Assembly (NCBI RefSeq): GCF_002849615.1
Contig: NZ_PDNV01000006.1
Span: 62,001-126,000 of the forward strand
Length of the DNA stretch: 64,000 nucleotides
Source: Pollutimonas nitritireducens
GTDB taxonomy: Bacteria > Pseudomonadota > Gammaproteobacteria > Burkholderiales > Burkholderiaceae_B
Reading direction: 5' to 3'
In this document: piece by piece, positions 2,799 through 37,692 of the stretch
Position numbering within the stretch: the first letter of the stretch is position 1
How the letters are laid out: the number at the start of each line of letters is the position of its first letter
Made by a program: the position numbers and the translations under genes
Notes under the pieces: model-generated
Seen by the model: only the letters and a program-made list of their open reading frames with translations
Told to the model about the DNA's origin: nothing
The model's database searches: none

Positions 2799-3652
2799 AC
2801 ACTCGCGACACCCAGCCAGCCGGCTCCGCCATCGTCCACGATGAAAAGGCCAAGCTCGATTTCTCCAGTGACATGAGCTATAGCGACTACCTGCACCTGG
2901 ACACCCTGCTGGGGTCGCAACATCCGCTGTCGCCCGAGCACAACGAGATGCTGTTCATTGTGCAGCACCAGACCAGCGAGCTCTGGATGAAACTGATGCT
3001 GCACGAGCTCAAGGCGGCCATGCAGAGCCTGTCCGCCGATCGTCTTCAGCCTTGTTTCAAGATGCTGGCGCGGGTCAGCAAGATAATGGAACAATTGGTA
3101 CACGCCTGGGACGTCCTGGCCACCATGACGCCGCCGGAATACTCCGCCCTAAGGCCCTATCTGGCGCAGTCCAGCGGTTTCCAGAGCTACCAATACCGTC
3201 AAATCGAATTTTCGTTGGGCAACAAGAACGCGGCCATGCTCAAGCCTCATTCACACCGGCCCGAGCTTCTTGCACAGGTACGCCACGCTTACGAAGCCCC
3301 GTCCCTTTACGACCAGGCCTTGAAGGCGCTGCATCGGCAGGGACTGGCCGTGCCCGACAATTATCTCCATCGTGACTGGACCCAGCCGTATATCGTCAGT
3401 GCCGAGGTTGAACAGGCATGGCTCACGGTATATCGCGATCCGGATCAGTACTGGGACATGTATCAGCTGGGCGAAAAATTGACCGACCTCGAAGACGCAT
3501 TCCGGCTCTGGCGCTTCCGGCATGTCACAACGGTGGAACGCATCATCGGATTCAAGCGGGGAACGGGAGGGACGTCGGGCGTTTCCTACCTGCGTAAAAT
3601 GCTCGACATCGTGCTGTTCCCCGAACTCTGGCGACTCCGTACAGACCTTTAA
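2795..3652 (+). CDS. kynA: Tryptophan 2,3-dioxygenase
   Basis: This 285-residue cytosolic haem enzyme opens the indole ring of L-tryptophan with O2 to give N-formylkynurenine, the substrate of the KynB encoded just upstream. Family signatures are seen: the N-terminal [11 protein letters not shown] segment, the [14 protein letters not shown] helix that lines the active site, and a C-terminal glycine-rich loop [11 protein letters not shown] that closes over the substrate. His243, in [11 protein letters not shown], sits where the proximal haem ligand lies in this family. The start codon overlaps the kynB stop (ATGA). Length is normal for the bacterial enzyme. Confidence 0.96.
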
Positions 3653-18822: not shown

Positions 18823-19353
18823 ATGCAAACCTCTCCTGCCCCGACAACCCCAACTTCCATCGTGTCAAGTCGCCTGCGGCGCTTCGCCTGCATGATGTAC
18901 GAGGCTGTGTTGCTGTTCGGTGTCATCTTCCTCGCCAGCTATCTCTTCGATACGCTGACGCAAAGTCGCGATGCCCTGATGCTGCGGCACGGCCGGCAGG
19001 CGATCGTGTTTCTAGCCGTGGGCGTGTACTTCATCATGTGCTGGCGCAAGCGCGGCCAGACGCTGCCAATGAAGACATGGAATATCCGTCTGATCGACCG
19101 CAATGGACTCAGTCCGACGCTTGGCCGCCTCATCGTCCGATACGTGCTGCTGTGGCCGCTGCCGCTGCTGGCTTCCCTCCTCGTCCTGCTCGCCTCGCGA
19201 ATGACCGGCTATAGCTCGACGGATCTCCTGATTGTTTTCGCCCCATTCAGCATCTTTGTCTGGACGTGGTTCGATCCCGAGCAACAATTCCTGCATGACC
19301 GCCTCCTCGGTACCCGCTTGATCGATGTACAGAAGGCTCGACAGTCGGTATAA
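18823..19353 (+). CDS. RDD family membrane protein
   Basis: This 176-residue protein has three or four hydrophobic helices. It shows the RDD pattern: Arg20 in the first helix, LPMKTWNIRLIDRNG with an Arg in the middle loop, and FLHDRLLGTRLID at the end, which is the commonest RDD C-terminal motif. The first conserved Asp is replaced by Glu27. RDD proteins are poorly understood; some take part in Na+/H+ exchange. The gene has its own start after the terminator at 18763, with a GATAAT -10-like box at 18785 and only a poor -35. Confidence 0.82.
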   Translation: MQTSPAPTTPTSIVSSRLRRFACMMYEAVLLFGVIFLASYLFDTLTQSRDALMLRHGRQAIVFLAVGVYFIMCWRKRGQTLPMKTWNIRLIDRNGLSPTLGRLIVRYVLLWPLPLLASLLVLLASRMTGYSSTDLLIVFAPFSIFVWTWFDPEQQFLHDRLLGTRLIDVQKARQSV

Positions 19354-19467: not shown

Positions 19468-21141
19468 ATGAACGACCAATATTCGGTGCTGTACCCGACT
19501 TACCACTGGTTTGTCCCATCACAATTCAACATTGCACAGGCGTGCGTACACCGCTGGGCTGAAAACCCACAGGAAGGCCGACGTATCGCCATCTATCACG
19601 AAACCGAAGTCGGACAGCGTGAAATCTGGACGTATTCCCGGCTTTCAGAAACCACCAACAAGTTATCCAATGGCCTGGTCAAAATGGGTGTCCAGCCAGG
19701 CGCTCGTGTGGCGGTCATCATGGGACAGCGCCCCGAAGCCGTAGCGGCGTACATGGCTGTTTTCAGTGTCGGGGCGATAGCAGTTCCGCTGCAAACGCTC
19801 ATCGGCGCGGATGGTCTGGCAACACGGCTGCGCGACGCCGATGCGCGCGTCGCCATCGTCGATGCCACGACCGCCCCCGACCTGCTGCAGGCGCAAGCTC
19901 AGTGCGCCACACTATCGCAAATCGTCGCACTGGGGTTTGAGCACGAAACCGTCATACCCTGGCGTAGCTTGCTTGCGCGGCAGCCTTCCGAATTCAAAAG
20001 CATTGCAACAAAATCCGACACCGCCGCATTGTTGCTCTACACGGCCGGAACAGCAGGCGCCCCGAAAGGCGCGCTTCTGGCCCATGGGTCCCTTATCGGG
20101 ACCCTGCCTGGCTTTGTCGCGGCACAAAACTGGTATCCGCTGAAAGGCGACGTGTTCTGGAGCCCCACCGAATGGGCCCGCGGCACCGGCCTGATGAATG
20201 CCTTGTTGCCGCCTCTCTATTTCGGACAGAGCCTGGTTGGAACACTGGGCGATTTTTCACCGACCCGCTGCCTGGAGGTCATGGAGCGCTACCGCGTGAC
20301 AAACGCCTTCCTGCTTCCCAAGGCCATCAAACTCATCATGCACCACATACCGGCGCCACGCGACCGATACCAGCTTGCCTTGCGCGCCATCATGGCATCC
20401 GGCGAAAGCCTGGATGCCGGAGCATTCGAATGGTGTCGAAAGGCGCTGGGTGTGACGCCCAACGAAGTGTTTGGACAAACCGAAATGAACGCCGTCATCG
20501 GCAACAGCCACAAAAAATGGCCCGCCAAGCCGGGCAGCATCGGCAGACCTTATCCCGGACATCAGGTTACCGTCCTGGATTCGCGTGGCGAAAGATGCGC
20601 AGTGGGGGCGGTGGGCGAAATCGCGCTCAATCGTTACGATATTCACAAACACCCCGATCCCGCCTTGTTCCTGGGCTATTGGCGCAACGAGACAGCAACG
20701 CAAAGCAAATTTTCCGGAGATTGGTGCCTGACCGGTGATCTTGCTTCAATCGATGAGGACGGCTACCTGTGGTATGCCGGGCGCAGCGACGATAGTTTCC
20801 GGAGTTCCGGCCACCGAATCGGACCGGGAGAAATCGAAAACTGCCTGTTGGGCCATTCCGCCGTGTCAAGCGCCGCGGTCGTCCCCAAGCCGGACAGCCA
20901 CCGAGGTGCACTGGTTAAAGCCTATGTGGTGTTGCGCAACTGCGCCAAGGGCCTCGACGCCCAGGTTCTCCAGAAAGAGCTGCAAGAACATGTCAGGACC
21001 CGCCTTGCTTCTTATCAGACGCCGCGCGAAATTGAATTCGTCGATACCCTGCCGCTGACCAATACCGGTAACATACGGCGTCATATTTTGCGGGCGCGCG
21101 AGCAGCAACGCAGCGCGACCGTTGCCGCAGCCCGCAAGTAG
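19468..21141 (+). CDS. Acyl-CoA-synthetase-like AMP-binding protein lacking the catalytic lysine
   Basis: This 557-residue protein has the full ANL-superfamily fold and resembles medium-chain acyl-CoA synthetases. Seen in order: a P-loop reading YTAGTAGAPKG (191-201, where YTSGTTGxPKG is usual), NEVFGQTEMN, TGDLASIDEDGY, and the hinge region YAGRSDD with SGHRIGPGEIE. The C-terminal motif reads LTNTGNIRR: residue 535 (codon AAC at 21070) is Asn where the adenylation lysine is expected. Acs in this window keeps that Lys (624). The protein may therefore not make acyl-adenylates, or may use a different residue. ATG at 19468 is preferred over TTG at 19453; neither has a good Shine-Dalgarno. Confidence 0.82.
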   Translation: MNDQYSVLYPTYHWFVPSQFNIAQACVHRWAENPQEGRRIAIYHETEVGQREIWTYSRLSETTNKLSNGLVKMGVQPGARVAVIMGQRPEAVAAYMAVFSVGAIAVPLQTLIGADGLATRLRDADARVAIVDATTAPDLLQAQAQCATLSQIVALGFEHETVIPWRSLLARQPSEFKSIATKSDTAALLLYTAGTAGAPKGALLAHGSLIGTLPGFVAAQNWYPLKGDVFWSPTEWARGTGLMNALLPPLYFGQSLVGTLGDFSPTRCLEVMERYRVTNAFLLPKAIKLIMHHIPAPRDRYQLALRAIMASGESLDAGAFEWCRKALGVTPNEVFGQTEMNAVIGNSHKKWPAKPGSIGRPYPGHQVTVLDSRGERCAVGAVGEIALNRYDIHKHPDPALFLGYWRNETATQSKFSGDWCLTGDLASIDEDGYLWYAGRSDDSFRSSGHRIGPGEIENCLLGHSAVSSAAVVPKPDSHRGALVKAYVVLRNCAKGLDAQVLQKELQEHVRTRLASYQTPREIEFVDTLPLTNTGNIRRHILRAREQQRSATVAAARK

Positions 21142-21195: not shown

Positions 21196-22131
21196 ATGAC
21201 TGATCAATTTAAAAAGTATCTCTTACCTGACCACAGCACCCGGGTCCAGGCCGTAAAACTCACATCTGCCTGGCAAGCCGGCCTGGTGCACCAGCACTAT
21301 CCTGACTGCGTACGGCGCCTGCTCGGCGAATTGGTGTCCGCCGCAGTGTTGCTGGCCACGAACATAAAGTTCGATGGATCGCTGGTGCTGCAATTGCAGG
21401 GCGACGGCCCCATTGCGCTGGTGGTCGTAGAATGCACTGCGGACTTGTCCATACGCGCCACGGTGACGCTGCGCGAAGGCCATGAAATACCGGCGGACGG
21501 GACACTGCAGTCGCTGCTGAATGCACAAGGCAAGGGCCGTTTCGTTGTAGTGCTTGACCCGAATCGTGACACCACCGATCTGGAGCCCTATCAGGGTATC
21601 GTCCCTTTGGAGGGCGTATCGGTTGCACAGGTGCTCGAACTCTATATGCGCAATTCCGAACAGCTCGACACCCGTATCTGGCTGGCATCCGACGCGCAGA
21701 ATTCGGCCGGCTTGTTGCTGCAGCGTTTGCCCAACCACGGTGGTGTGGCCGGAAACGACCAGGAAGCGGCTGATGAAGCGCGCGAGGAAACCTGGACACG
21801 TATCTGCCACCTCGCCGGCACTGTAAAGTACGATGAGCTGCTGGCGCTCGACACTGACACCCTGATCCATCGTCTGTTCTGGGAAGAGGATCTTATCGTC
21901 TTCGAACCTCAAGAGGTCCGATGGCACTGTCCCTGCACGCGCGAACGCGTCGCCAACATGCTGCGCATGCTGGGTCGCGCAGAAATTGAGGACATACTCA
22001 CCGAACGCGAGGTGATTGACATTTCCTGCAGCTTCTGCGGCAAGCCATATCAGTTCGACGCCGTGGATTGTGCCGGGCTGTTCGTCGAAAACCTGGATAC
22101 CTCTCACGGCGAGCACAAGTCGGTCCACTGA
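21196..22131 (+). CDS. hslO: Redox-regulated chaperone Hsp33
   Basis: This 311-residue cytosolic holdase is switched on by oxidation of its zinc-bound cysteines. The four zinc ligands are Cys245 and Cys247 (HCPCTRERV) and Cys278 and Cys281 (CSFCGKPYQF). The N-terminal domain starts with the usual DQFKKYLLPDHSTRVQAV. The C-terminal domain EREVIDISCSFCG is intact, so the switch should work. Length is near the family norm. It begins 54 bases after the AMP-ligase-like gene. Confidence 0.96.
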   Translation: MTDQFKKYLLPDHSTRVQAVKLTSAWQAGLVHQHYPDCVRRLLGELVSAAVLLATNIKFDGSLVLQLQGDGPIALVVVECTADLSIRATVTLREGHEIPADGTLQSLLNAQGKGRFVVVLDPNRDTTDLEPYQGIVPLEGVSVAQVLELYMRNSEQLDTRIWLASDAQNSAGLLLQRLPNHGGVAGNDQEAADEAREETWTRICHLAGTVKYDELLALDTDTLIHRLFWEEDLIVFEPQEVRWHCPCTRERVANMLRMLGRAEIEDILTEREVIDISCSFCGKPYQFDAVDCAGLFVENLDTSHGEHKSVH

Positions 22132-22210: not shown

Positions 22211-23353
22211 ATGCGCCCGAACCATGCCCCACTTCGAACAGATCCACGCGGTACTTCGCGCCCGTGGCGCTACTTCGCCCGGGCGCCAGAACGCCAGGCT
22301 GGTACCAGCCTCATCGAATTCTTCGTCGCGGCCATACCTATCCTGCTGATCGGCATGGGCAGCATAGAAATTTCACAATGGTTCTTCAAGCGCCAGGCCC
22401 TCAGCCTTGCCCTGCTCGAGGCCGGTCGCGCAGCCATCACGGCACATGCCAGTCCCCGGATTATTGAATCGGCATTCGAAAAAGCATTGCTGCCCCTGTT
22501 CAGCACCGGGGCCCCGTCTACCGAATCCGGGTCTGGCGCGACCCGGTCTAGCGCGACCCGGTCTAGCGCGACCCGGTCCGGTGCGACGCGATCACAATAT
22601 GATGCCGTTCAACGATTGGAGCAGGCCCTGGCAGAACGCCGACTGCTGACCGGGGCTGCGCCCTGGCGTATCGAGATTCTCTCGCCAACGCGCCTGGCCT
22701 TTCTCGATTTTTCCGATCCCGCGCTGCCCATTGCGCAGGAAACAGGGTTGCATGCCATCAACAACAACTATCTGGCCGAACAGTCGCAACACGCCATGGC
22801 ACAGGGTTGGGCGGCTGCCCGTGGCCCCGAATCGGGCCAGGACATCCTGCAAGCCAATACGCTGGTATTGCGACTGACCTATTTGCATGAACCCATCCTG
22901 CCTGGCATCAAGGGGCTGATGCGGCTCCTGGGTTCGCAAGGCGGCTCATATGGCCAGAACGCCATGGCTCGCGGGGGCTACCTTCCAATCGTGCAAGATA
23001 TGGCCCTGGTCATGCAATCTCATCCGGTCGACTGGCCATCGCTCAGCAATGGCAAGGTCGTCAAACATCAGATGGCGCCGTCAGGATTGCCGACCGCCAT
23101 GGAAGATTGCCGGGGTTTATGGTGCATGGACGTGCCTTCGATTGCCGCAACCCGCGCAATAGCGCAGCCCTCTGCGGAAAGCGCGCTGCCTCGGTGGCCT
23201 TCGGTCGAAAATTCGCAGCCAGCCGACACGGCAGCCACGGGTGTCTTGCCAGGCAATGCCGCAGATGCTCCGGTGCCTGCCACCACTGTTTCCGGCCCGG
23301 CCGTAGCGGCCGATGATCCGGCTTGCGGAGTCATCTTGTGTTGTGCGGTTTAG
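22211..23353 (+). CDS. TadE-like membrane-anchored protein, isolated copy
   Basis: This 380-residue protein has one hydrophobic segment near the N-terminus (TSLIEFFVAAIPILLIGMGSI), preceded by a basic, Arg-rich stretch. The Glu inside that segment and its position match TadE/TadG-type pseudopilins. The remainder is probably outside the membrane. A 15-bp tandem repeat at 22532-22591 adds a GATRS/SATRS array. Cysteines occur in EDCRGLWC and at the end in CGVILCC. No other tad gene (ATPase, platform, secretin) is in the window. The start is uncertain as no Shine-Dalgarno is seen. It meets ftsB tail to tail with overlapping stops. Confidence 0.6.
   Translation: MRPNHAPLRTDPRGTSRPWRYFARAPERQAGTSLIEFFVAAIPILLIGMGSIEISQWFFKRQALSLALLEAGRAAITAHASPRIIESAFEKALLPLFSTGAPSTESGSGATRSSATRSSATRSGATRSQYDAVQRLEQALAERRLLTGAAPWRIEILSPTRLAFLDFSDPALPIAQETGLHAINNNYLAEQSQHAMAQGWAAARGPESGQDILQANTLVLRLTYLHEPILPGIKGLMRLLGSQGGSYGQNAMARGGYLPIVQDMALVMQSHPVDWPSLSNGKVVKHQMAPSGLPTAMEDCRGLWCMDVPSIAATRAIAQPSAESALPRWPSVENSQPADTAATGVLPGNAADAPVPATTVSGPAVAADDPACGVILCCAV
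22532..22591 (+). repeat. 15-bp tandem repeat, 4 copies, inside the TadE-like gene
   Basis: Four units at 22532, 22547, 22562 and 22577 follow TCTAGCGCGACCCGG. The two middle units are identical and the outer ones differ by a few bases. They encode a five-residue Ser/Ala-Thr-Arg repeat in frame. Confidence 0.9.
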
Positions 23354-34792: not shown

Positions 34793-35719
34793 TTATGTAC
34801 GCAGGTTGCGCCGCCGCAGCCTGCGTAGCGCCTCTGGCGGCAGATTGATTGCCACCAGACCTGCCATGATGAACATCACGCCCCATGCTTCGAGCAGGGT
34901 GGGCCGTTCTCCAAGCAGAAGCCACGCGAGGATGATGGTTAACACGGGAACACCCAGGCTGGACATCCCCGCTATCGTTGCGCTGACCTTCCGCACGACG
35001 GACAACCACAGCCACCAGCCCAGCGCCGAGGCCAGTATGGCCATATAGGCCATGCCCCAGAACAGATCGGGTCCCCACACTATGCTGCGCTGGGGCCACA
35101 CCAGTGCCACCGGCAAGGCGAACAAGGCGCCCAGCAGCATTTGCCAGCTGCTCAGGTTCAGCACCTCCACCCGATGGCTGATAAACATTTTCTTGGTCAA
35201 TACCACACCCAGCGCCCAGCTCATACCCCCGCCCAGTGCCAGCAAGGAACCCTGGACGCTGCCCACGCCTTTCCAAGGTGCAATCACGGCAATCAGTCCG
35301 AGCGCTGCCAGCACCAGTGCCAAGATGTGACGCCGAGCCGGGCGTTCCTTAAGCAGTAGCCAGGCGAACACCACCACCCAGAACGGCATCGTATAGGCCA
35401 GCAATGCCACGTGGCCCGCTCCGCCGCTGGTCAGCGCCATCTGACAAAGACACTGGAAAGCCGTGGTCTGGAAGACAGCAATACCCACTGTCAACCAGAA
35501 GGGCGGAAAACGCAGGGATTTCCTGGTCGCCACGAGTATCGAGAACAAGACAAGAAAGGCCAGGCCGTATCGGCCAACGACCAGGTCGAATGGCCCAATG
35601 AGGGCGGACAGGTGCTTCATGACGATCCAGCTGAATCCCCACAGCACCACGGTAATGCCCATGAGGAACAAGGCCCCGCGGTCCGCCTGGTTTTCTTTCA
35701 ACAGAATGCGCCCTACCAA
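34793..35719 (-). CDS. DMT superfamily (EamA) transporter
   Basis: This 308-residue protein has ten hydrophobic helices made of two EamA repeats (first [16 protein letters not shown], second [18 protein letters not shown]). Such proteins export amino acids, metabolites or act as nucleotide-sugar-like carriers; the substrate is unknown. Its start overlaps the 3' end of acs by seven bases, so it is likely translated from the acs mRNA, though it need not be functionally linked. It converges on etfD with 9 bases between. Confidence 0.85.
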
Positions 35720-37692
35720 GCCTGCGACAACTGATCCAGAATTGCAGGATTCTCGAGCGTGGAAACGTCCTGGGTGACGGATTCTCCTTGGGCTACGACC
35801 CGAAGAAGGCGTCGCATGATTTTTCCAGAACGCGTCTTCGGAAGGTTTTCACCGAAGCGTATGTCCTTGGGCTTGGCGATGGGACCGATTTCCTTCGCCA
35901 CCCAGTCGCGCAGTTGCTTCGCTACCTTTGCGGCCTCAGCTCCTTCCGGTAGCGGCCCATTGAGCACGACAAAGGCGACCACGGCTTCTCCGGTCGTGGC
36001 ATCCGGACGCCCCACCACGGCGGCTTCGGCGACCAGTGAATGCGACACCAGGGCCGATTCGACCTCCATGGTGCCCAGCCGATGGCCAGACACGTTCAGA
36101 ACATCGTCAATACGGCCCATGATCCAGAAATAGCCATCCGCGTCGCACTGCGCGCCGTCGCCAGCCAGATAGGCGCCTTTCAGCTCGGAGGGAAAATAGC
36201 TTTTCTTGAATCGTTCAGGATCACCCCATATCGTGCGTATCATTCCGGGCCATGGGCGCTGCACCACCAGGAAGCCACCCTTGCCGCTTTCCAGCGGTTC
36301 GCCTGCCTCGTCAACGACCGCGGCCGCTATACCGGGCAGGGGCAAGGTGCAGGAGCCGGGCTTGAGCGGCGTCACGCCGGGCAAAGGTGTGATCATGTGG
36401 GCACCGGTCTCGGTCTGCCACCACGTGTCCAATACTGGGCAGCGCTCGCGACCCACATTGGTGTAGTACCACATCCAGGCTTCCGGATTGATGGGCTCGC
36501 CCACCGATCCGATAATGCGAAGGCTGCTGAGGTCATATTCGCGCGGGTGGTAATCGGGAGATCCCTCGGCGGCCTTGCTGAGCGAACGGATTGCCGTCGG
36601 AGCGGTGTAAAACACCGTAACCTTGTGACGCTGGATCATTTCCCAGAAACGGCCAACATTGGGATAGGTGGGAATACCTTCAAATACCACTTGCGTCAAG
36701 CCAGCGGCCAACGGCCCATAGGTAATGTAGGTGTGCCCTGTTACCCAGCCGACATCGGCCGTGCACCAGAAAACATCAGAGTCCTTGGCATCGAACGTCC
36801 ATTTGACCGTAAGCAAGGCCCACAGCAGGAAACCTGCCGTGGCATGCTGCACACCCTTCGGCTTGCCTGTCGAACCCGATGTGTAGAGGATGAACAGGGG
36901 ATGTTCGGCATTCAGTGAGACAGGTTCGCATTGGTCGGACTGGCCTTCCGACAGCGCGTTCATCCAGATGTCGCGGCCCTCGTTCCATTGCACCGGTCCG
37001 CCGGTGCGCTTGTAGACGACCACATGTGAGACGGCCTCGCAACCGCCCATGGACAGGGCTTCGTCGACCGCGTTTTTCAATGGAATGGACTTGCCGCCGC
37101 GCACCTGTTCGTCAGCAGTGATCACCAGCGTAGCACCCACATCGACAGTGCGCTCGTGGAGGCTCTTCGATGAGAACCCCCCGAACACGACTGAGTGAAT
37201 GATGCCCAGGCGCGCGCAAGCTTGCATGGCGACGACCGCTTCAATGGACATCGGCAGGTAGATAATGGCCCGCTCGCCAGCCTGGTGCCCCAGTGACTTC
37301 AGACCATTGGCGAATTTGCAGACTCGGGCATGTAACTCTTTATAGGTCACTGAAGTAACCTTCCCGTCGTCCGCTTCGAAAATAAGCGCCGTTTTATTGG
37401 CGGTTGGCGTAGCAAGATGCTTGTCGAGGCAATTCGCCGACACATTCATCTCGCCGTCCGCGAACCAACGATAAAACGGCGCTTCGGATTCATCCAGAAC
37501 CTGGCTGAAAGGCTTTGTCCAATTCAGGTTTTCCCGTGCAAGTCGCCCCCAGAAATCGTCGGGCGATTGTCGTGCCTCATCGCACAGCGCCTGGTACTCT
37601 TTCATTCCGGAAATAGCAGCACCTTCGACAAGATTGGGAAAAGGCGGGAAGACCCGGGTTTCGGTGAGTACAGACTCAATTCCACTAGACAT
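35713..37692 (-). CDS. acs: Acetyl-CoA synthetase
   Basis: This 659-residue AMP-forming ligase activates acetate (and probably propionate) to its CoA ester. The P-loop reads [11 protein letters not shown], the aromatic motif DTWWQTETG is present, and the C-terminal SGKIMRR holds the catalytic Lys624, the residue also acetylated for control in the family. The WWQTE tryptophan pattern supports a short-chain substrate. Length fits Acs, including the N-terminal ACAS_N part. The downstream EamA gene overlaps its 3' end. Confidence 0.95.

Follow-up and report, generated by a model that had tools for sequence, protein, structure and literature searches.

The rdd-hslO interval of Alcaligenaceae harbors a gene whose product, in Pollutimonas nitritireducens, is probably a pseudoenzyme derived from a MACS-type acyl-CoA synthetase. 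Sequence comparisons suggest that adenylation has been lost several times independently at this locus, and that the N-terminal domain would have been kept for a non-catalytic function. The gene was examined within a 64,000-nucleotide stretch of contig NZ_PDNV01000006.1 (the window), which also encodes a canonical acetyl-CoA synthetase, Acs. The relevant features are the following.

18823-19353, + strand: gene of an RDD-family protein, the usual upstream neighbor (synteny)
19468-21141, + strand: 557-residue acyl-CoA-synthetase-like protein, proposed pseudoenzyme, which carries Asn within the rdd-hslO family of positional orthologues (ORF, Pfam, synteny, AlphaFold2, Foldseek)
20041-20070, + strand: A3 or P-loop, residues 192-201, TAGTAGAPKG, with S193A and T196A relative to TSGTTGxPKG of canonical orthologues (alignment)
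20170-20187, + strand: A4 region, residues 235-240, EWARGT for canonical DWAWTG, i.e. D235E, W238R, T239G and G240T (alignment)
20491-20493, + strand: residue 342, Tyr to Ala, directly after the A5 motif GQTE (alignment)
20800-20802, + strand: residue 445 in A8, with Lys replaced by Arg in the window species but kept in the P. subterranea orthologue L015 (alignment)
21070-21072, + strand: AAC codon of Asn535, the site of the A10 catalytic lysine (sequence read)
21196-22131, + strand: hslO (Hsp33 chaperone), the usual downstream neighbor (synteny)
35713-37692, - strand: Acs, canonical acetyl-CoA synthetase, which served as control (SGKIMRR with Lys624)

Active-site motifs of the window protein

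The window protein resembles the MACS/ACS-type acyl-CoA synthetases of the ANL superfamily in fold, in both Pfam domains and in motifs A5, A7 and A8. It matches the AMP-binding domain PF00501 (205 bits, cut-off 29.9) and the C-terminal domain PF13193 (74 bits, cut-off 24.5), and its AlphaFold2 model shows the two-domain ANL fold (mean pLDDT 91.3), with ACSM2A (3c5e, TM 0.88) as the best PDB match in Foldseek. None of the best 25 NCBIfam models reached its cut-off: the top two, NF003313 (acetate--CoA ligase) and NF047394 (MbcS), gave 355 and 329 bits against cut-offs of 729 and 850. The best 25 models likewise all remained under their cut-offs for the canonical orthologue L023 (397 and 371 bits for the two models named) and for three orthologues consisting of the N-terminal domain only.

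Three features of an active acyl-CoA synthetase are missing from this protein: the A10 lysine, the P-loop consensus and the canonical A4 region. The sequence-only reading had drawn attention to Asn535 (in the motif TNTGNIRR, which begins at residue 531), to the unusual P-loop and to the intact lysine motif of Acs in the same window, and all of these were confirmed when the sequences were read. Compared to (T/S)SG(T/S)TGxPKG, the P-loop has lost Ser193 and Thr196, with its Gly, Pro and Lys positions intact. The further claim that the remaining motifs are kept stands only in part: it is correct for A5 (GQTE), A7 (TGD) and A8 (GRxDD, here GRSDD), which supply the nucleotide-binding Glu, Asp and Arg, respectively, but A4, Tyr342, Lys445 and Tyr449 (the last now His) are changed. 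According to excerpts of two papers, five residues, the A10 lysine among them, do not vary in 374 class I adenylate-forming sequences (PMC6122825), and this lysine is termed essential for adenylation (PMC11255334). Since this lysine is lost and the P-loop and A4 are altered, loss of the first half-reaction, as proposed earlier, is the most likely reading of the sequence. Descent and fold thus place the protein in the ANL superfamily, but by its predicted catalytic features it is not an acyl-CoA synthetase and is probably a pseudoenzyme. Salmonella Acs offers a parallel, judging by PDB titles, with structures in which the A10 lysine is missing (K609A, 2p2j) or blocked (acetylated Lys609, 1pg3); these are a laboratory mutant and a modification, respectively, and the active site is otherwise intact.

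Asn535 is neither a sequencing error nor a private mutation, since the P. subterranea orthologue (L015), 87% identical to the window protein and thus separated from it by 13% protein divergence, also has Asn encoded by AAC, and a P-loop reading TGGTAGAPKG. The two proteins have Asn535, Ala196, Glu235, Arg238 and Ala342 in common, so these changes are not private errors. The three other genomes of the genus, at 73-76% identity, encode Lys and TSGTTG. Asn535 and the P-loop change T196A, whose conservation was to be judged by aligning orthologues, are shared with one species and absent from the three other genomes; Lys-bearing orthologues do exist (3 of the 5 genomes of the genus), but the recent mutation or error that they had been expected to signal does not fit the Asn of P. 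subterranea. The idea that a different residue substitutes for the lysine finds no support either: no lysine has been gained inside the catalytic motifs in both Asn species, and those gained in both (positions 65, 325, 349 and 494) lie outside these motifs. A substitute lysine is thus disfavored, with positions compared along the sequence. Elsewhere in the genome of the window, a match to the query contains one TGA (G000:C11:328108-328788, - strand).

Forms of the gene across Alcaligenaceae

Across Alcaligenaceae the gene is a positional orthologue, in the order rdd-[ACS]-hslO. In those in-family loci that have 1 kb of flank or more, rdd was found upstream in 69/88 and hslO downstream in 80/86; some of these flanks are only 1.0-1.5 kb long, and short flanks and rdd divergence could conceal further synteny. 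This neighborhood was found for canonical, Lys-less and truncated forms alike. hslO was not found downstream in L053, L054, L079, L080, L086 and L090, and is inverted near L054. At eight loci of seven genera (L141, positions 2813-3331, and the same place in L142-L148) an extra gene of 173 residues (185 in L148) stands between hslO and the remnant, immediately downstream of the latter; its L141 copy belongs to the hexapeptide-repeat proteins (PF00132), with gamma carbonic anhydrase as the best NCBIfam model, below cut-off. On the far side of hslO, the window and many related loci carry the gene of a TadE-like protein (22211-23353, + strand; PF07811, 23.6 bits, cut-off 22.9).

Twenty genomes, mostly from genera without a strong match to the query, were also searched for hslO, which was detected in 17. 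A remnant of the gene lies nearby in 9 of these, 6 have rdd without the gene, and 2 show no such gene in the stretch read. The six cases of whole-gene loss with rdd and hslO both present (L125, L126, L127, L128, L131 and L133) come from five genera. Judging by these absences, together with the two in the stretch read, some members of the family can do without the function.

The 99 in-family orthologues are not a census, as degenerate forms were sought deliberately and one genus (g4) is represented by 8 of its 44 matched genomes. They comprise 39 with Lys and a P-loop that fits the relaxed consensus, 11 with Lys and a non-consensus P-loop, 15 that are full-length and Lys-less (2 Asn, 5 Gln, 5 Thr, 1 Ala, 1 Arg, 1 Gly), 31 from 17 genera that are reduced to an N-terminal domain of 437-478 residues without any C-terminal domain, one degenerate full-length form and two cut by a contig end. 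The N-domain-only forms stop near the domain boundary, at similar end points, and the P-loop consensus is found in none of the 31; in its relaxed version it still fits 7 of the 15 Lys-less full-length forms (5 Gln, 1 Thr, 1 Ala). A non-Lys form is present in 25/34 genera with an orthologue read, in a sample that leans to odd forms. L006-L013 were excluded from alignments and counts as overlapping loci, identity having been checked for only some pairs, and L014 because it is cut by a contig end. Out-of-family loci (20 of 56 places listed, hand-picked mainly from the top) have the TSGTTGxPKG P-loop in 20/20 cases and Lys in 19/20. The Lys-less exception, L111, reads TTTGRCSAK where its relatives have TTTGKVQR, and its DNA looks as if one base had been deleted and the frame regained a little further downstream.

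Several of the in-family forms deserve individual mention. All five loci of genus g38 (L081-L085) have Gln at the A10 position, with TAGTTGMPKG and a complete C-terminal domain. Gln resembles acetyl-lysine, and such uniformity looks less like free drift. In the full-length forms L069, L072-L074 (genus g43), and L079 and L080 (g30), Lys is kept despite a badly altered P-loop, so the change does not always start at Lys. The degenerate full-length form, L146 (genus g32), has 563 residues, with both domains strongly diverged and the usual motifs unrecognizable. Three genomes of genus g23 in which a stop falls inside the match are not disrupted copies, but carry intact 453-residue N-domain-only frames that end there. 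Besides the 31 classified, four more open frames of this kind were read. A split gene with a separate C-domain reading frame was also rejected, there being a single tblastn match on the coding strand at each locus examined.

A tree of 72 sequences, built with the active-site columns left out, needs at least 13 changes between Lys and not-Lys, at least 7 between truncated and full-length and at least 8 for the TSGTTG P-loop, all minimum counts on a tree that includes open forks, unsettled bootstrap values and two long branches (L144 and L124). Three placements carry starred support: the Asn pair beside the Lys-bearing L016, L061 beside L062 and L072, and L088 beside L034. There have thus been several independent losses, their exact number being uncertain.

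The degeneration is specific to this locus. In the control, P-loop and Lys were intact in all 30 Acs-like copies read, from 27 genomes, and a genome-wide relaxation of such enzymes was rejected on this basis. The copies were read from among 36 listed places, spread over 27 of the 30 genomes searched; at the rdd-hslO locus, 24 of these 27 genomes have an N-domain-only form, 2 a Gln form and 1 a Lys form. Three genomes had no match at 1e-200, and the frames were chosen by their P-loop pattern, each of the 30 loci yielding a frame.

Selection on canonical and degenerate forms

Constraint on the degenerate forms is relaxed, yet present. YN00 estimates of dN/dS for the window protein and L015, a single pair with dS of 0.7-1.0, were 0.10 for the N-domain and 0.054 for the C-domain. 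N-domain-only pairs gave 0.044-0.175 (9 of 11 pairs with an estimate) and canonical pairs 0.008-0.033 (7 of 13); 2 N-domain-only pairs, 6 all-canonical pairs and all 3 Gln pairs yielded no estimate, and dS was often near or above 1, so that the values are rough. Other full-length non-canonical pairs gave 0.005 (L061/L070), 0.024 (L072/L074) and 0.072 (L079/L080). The earlier view that the window gene is not in simple decay is supported.

We also asked where in the protein the Asn lineage has changed. Its share of the tree length is 39.5% for motif columns, 10.9% for the rest of the N-domain and 11.0% for the C-domain (37.2% against 11.8% with earlier, narrower windows around the motifs), in a comparison of 17 sequences with the topology fixed by hand from a tree. 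The motif columns hardly vary among Lys-bearing relatives, and a share computed in this way is inflated as a result. The C-domain rate of this lineage is not above that of the rest of the protein. Among sites invariant across 58 canonical sequences, those changed in both Asn species number 12/47 in motifs and 6/96 elsewhere (p = 0.0023) when the motif windows are extended by residues 281-291 and 309-318, which were added after the changes had been seen. The earlier windows gave 8/40 motif sites against 8/61 other N-domain sites (p = 0.41; whole protein, p = 0.21), and A3 and A4 alone, picked afterwards, 8/23 against 8/78 (p = 0.009). The data therefore suggest, but do not establish, that changes concentrate in the active site, as the outcome depends on the choice of windows; this lowered our confidence in the preferred explanation and slightly raised that in two of its rivals. 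In the Lys-bearing sister L016, 5/47 motif sites are changed compared to 0/54 elsewhere in the N-domain, a hint that change began before the lysine was lost.

To see what the N-domain-only forms retain, we compared 22 of the 31 with 23 of the 58 canonical sequences. Relative to the canonical forms, their conservation falls to 0.48 in A3, 0.62 in A4, 0.41 in residues 281-291, 0.40 in 309-318, 0.51 in A5 and 0.57 in A7, i.e. to 0.40-0.62 in the catalytic segments overall; some other segments are at 0.64-0.76, and four hold up well, namely residues 1-35 (1.12), 161-176 (1.09), 205-229 (0.95) and 346-371 (0.89). An N-domain-only protein is predicted to fold (pLDDT 90.9, pTM 0.91). Since these forms are under selection, something besides acyl-CoA synthesis is kept in them. 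One candidate, regulation of an active paralogue as its partner, cannot be general: in two reduced genomes (G023, 1.7 Mb, and G058, 1.6 Mb, both estimated 100% complete) the remnant is an intact N-domain-only frame, and a profile search (E <= 0.001) found no PF00501 locus besides it.

Preferred and alternative explanations

We propose the following scenario. The ancestor would have been an ordinary MACS-like acyl-CoA synthetase encoded between rdd and hslO in Alcaligenaceae. Its N-domain would carry a second, non-catalytic function maintained by selection, and catalysis, being dispensable, would have been lost several times independently. In the lineage of the window the A10 lysine, two P-loop residues and A4 have changed, so that the protein would no longer form an acyl-adenylate and would be retained as a folded protein under selection; sister lineages would be further along, with P-loop and C-domain gone and an N-domain of 437-478 residues preserved. 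The proposed role of the N-domain is most likely binding or scaffolding, via roughly the first 35 residues and the stretches near 161-176, 205-229 and 346-371, and orthology suggests that the window protein keeps the same function as its N-domain-only relatives.

The constraint on the C-domain of the Asn lineage speaks against this account, as an N-domain function leaves it unexplained; a partial function that depends on CoA or AMP may thus persist in this species. It could mean that only the first half-reaction is lost and that the protein acts on a ready-made acyl-adenylate or acyl-CoA, by the thioester-forming or the reverse half-reaction or by binding acyl-CoA or AMP. The intact A5, A7 and A8 and the Gln forms, which combine a relaxed P-loop consensus with a C-domain, would agree with this, as would the case of AcsA with an acetylated A10 lysine, which in an excerpt of PMC11255334 the authors expect to form the thioester and not the adenylate. 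We nevertheless regard it as unlikely, because the P-loop, A4 and pocket positions are altered too, and because sister lineages retain the protein without a C-domain. The ANL C-terminal domain takes part in CoA binding, and with 31/99 orthologues devoid of the whole domain, the role in CoA transfer or binding that had been suggested for the window protein is unsupported as a general explanation.

Still less probable is a fully active acyl-CoA ligase in which Asn is tolerated or another residue takes over. The full length of the protein, the kept A5, A7 and A8 and a predicted fold near ACSM2A would be expected of such an enzyme, but so would the lysine described as invariant across class I sequences in the excerpt of PMC6122825, and different lineages have Asn, Gln, Thr, Ala, Arg or Gly in its place; moreover, no lysine gained in both Asn species lies at the motifs, and the P-loop and A4 are altered. 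Neutral decay of a dispensable enzyme, i.e. a pseudogene in progress, was already disfavored and appears very improbable. Although dN/dS is higher in N-domain-only than in canonical pairs (the latter range resting on 7 pairs) and several genera are without the gene, the ratio is far under 1 in every pair with an estimate, the N-domain-only frames are open and end at similar points in 17 genera, and the protein is retained in genomes of 1.6-1.7 Mb where no other PF00501 locus was found. Least credible is a reading frame that persists solely for an effect in cis, for example coupling to hslO, which in the window begins a mere 54 bases downstream, given the constraint at the amino-acid level, the failure to find hslO downstream in L079 and L080, its inversion near L054 and the intervening gene in L141-L148.

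Among known systems, the closest parallel for a functional partial AMP-binding domain is a Burkholderia cenocepacia phenylacetate-CoA ligase with PF00501 domain atrophy (PMC4432964, excerpt); there the missing elements are N-terminal and the protein is presented as a ligase, whereas the losses here concern catalytic motifs and the C-domain. A search of open-licence papers, covering titles and the starts of abstracts, returned nothing that we recognized as a description of this family or of such an acyl-CoA synthetase pseudoenzyme.

Pseudoenzymes generally keep their fold under selection and lose catalytic residues. The present case differs in that a superfamily-invariant residue has disappeared several times independently, always at the same locus of a single bacterial family, and that intermediates exist. 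A residue that an excerpt of PMC6122825 reports as invariant in 374 sequences has thus been given up again and again at one locus, and the protein kept. The family offers many stages, from canonical forms through forms that have altered motifs but still carry Lys to forms without Lys and forms without the C-domain, so that the transition from enzyme to pseudoenzyme becomes testable with real intermediates. The findings also caution against annotating such genes as acyl-CoA synthetases, and point to a hidden function in genomes of 1.6-1.7 Mb. In a bolder reading, which we consider about as likely as not, the non-catalytic function of the N-domain would predate the loss of catalysis, and the activity would then have been discarded in many parallel events, the end point being an N-domain-only protein that survives in reduced genomes with no other gene of the AMP-binding family found. 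If this is true, the rdd-hslO locus of Alcaligenaceae would provide a natural replicate series leading from enzyme to scaffold.
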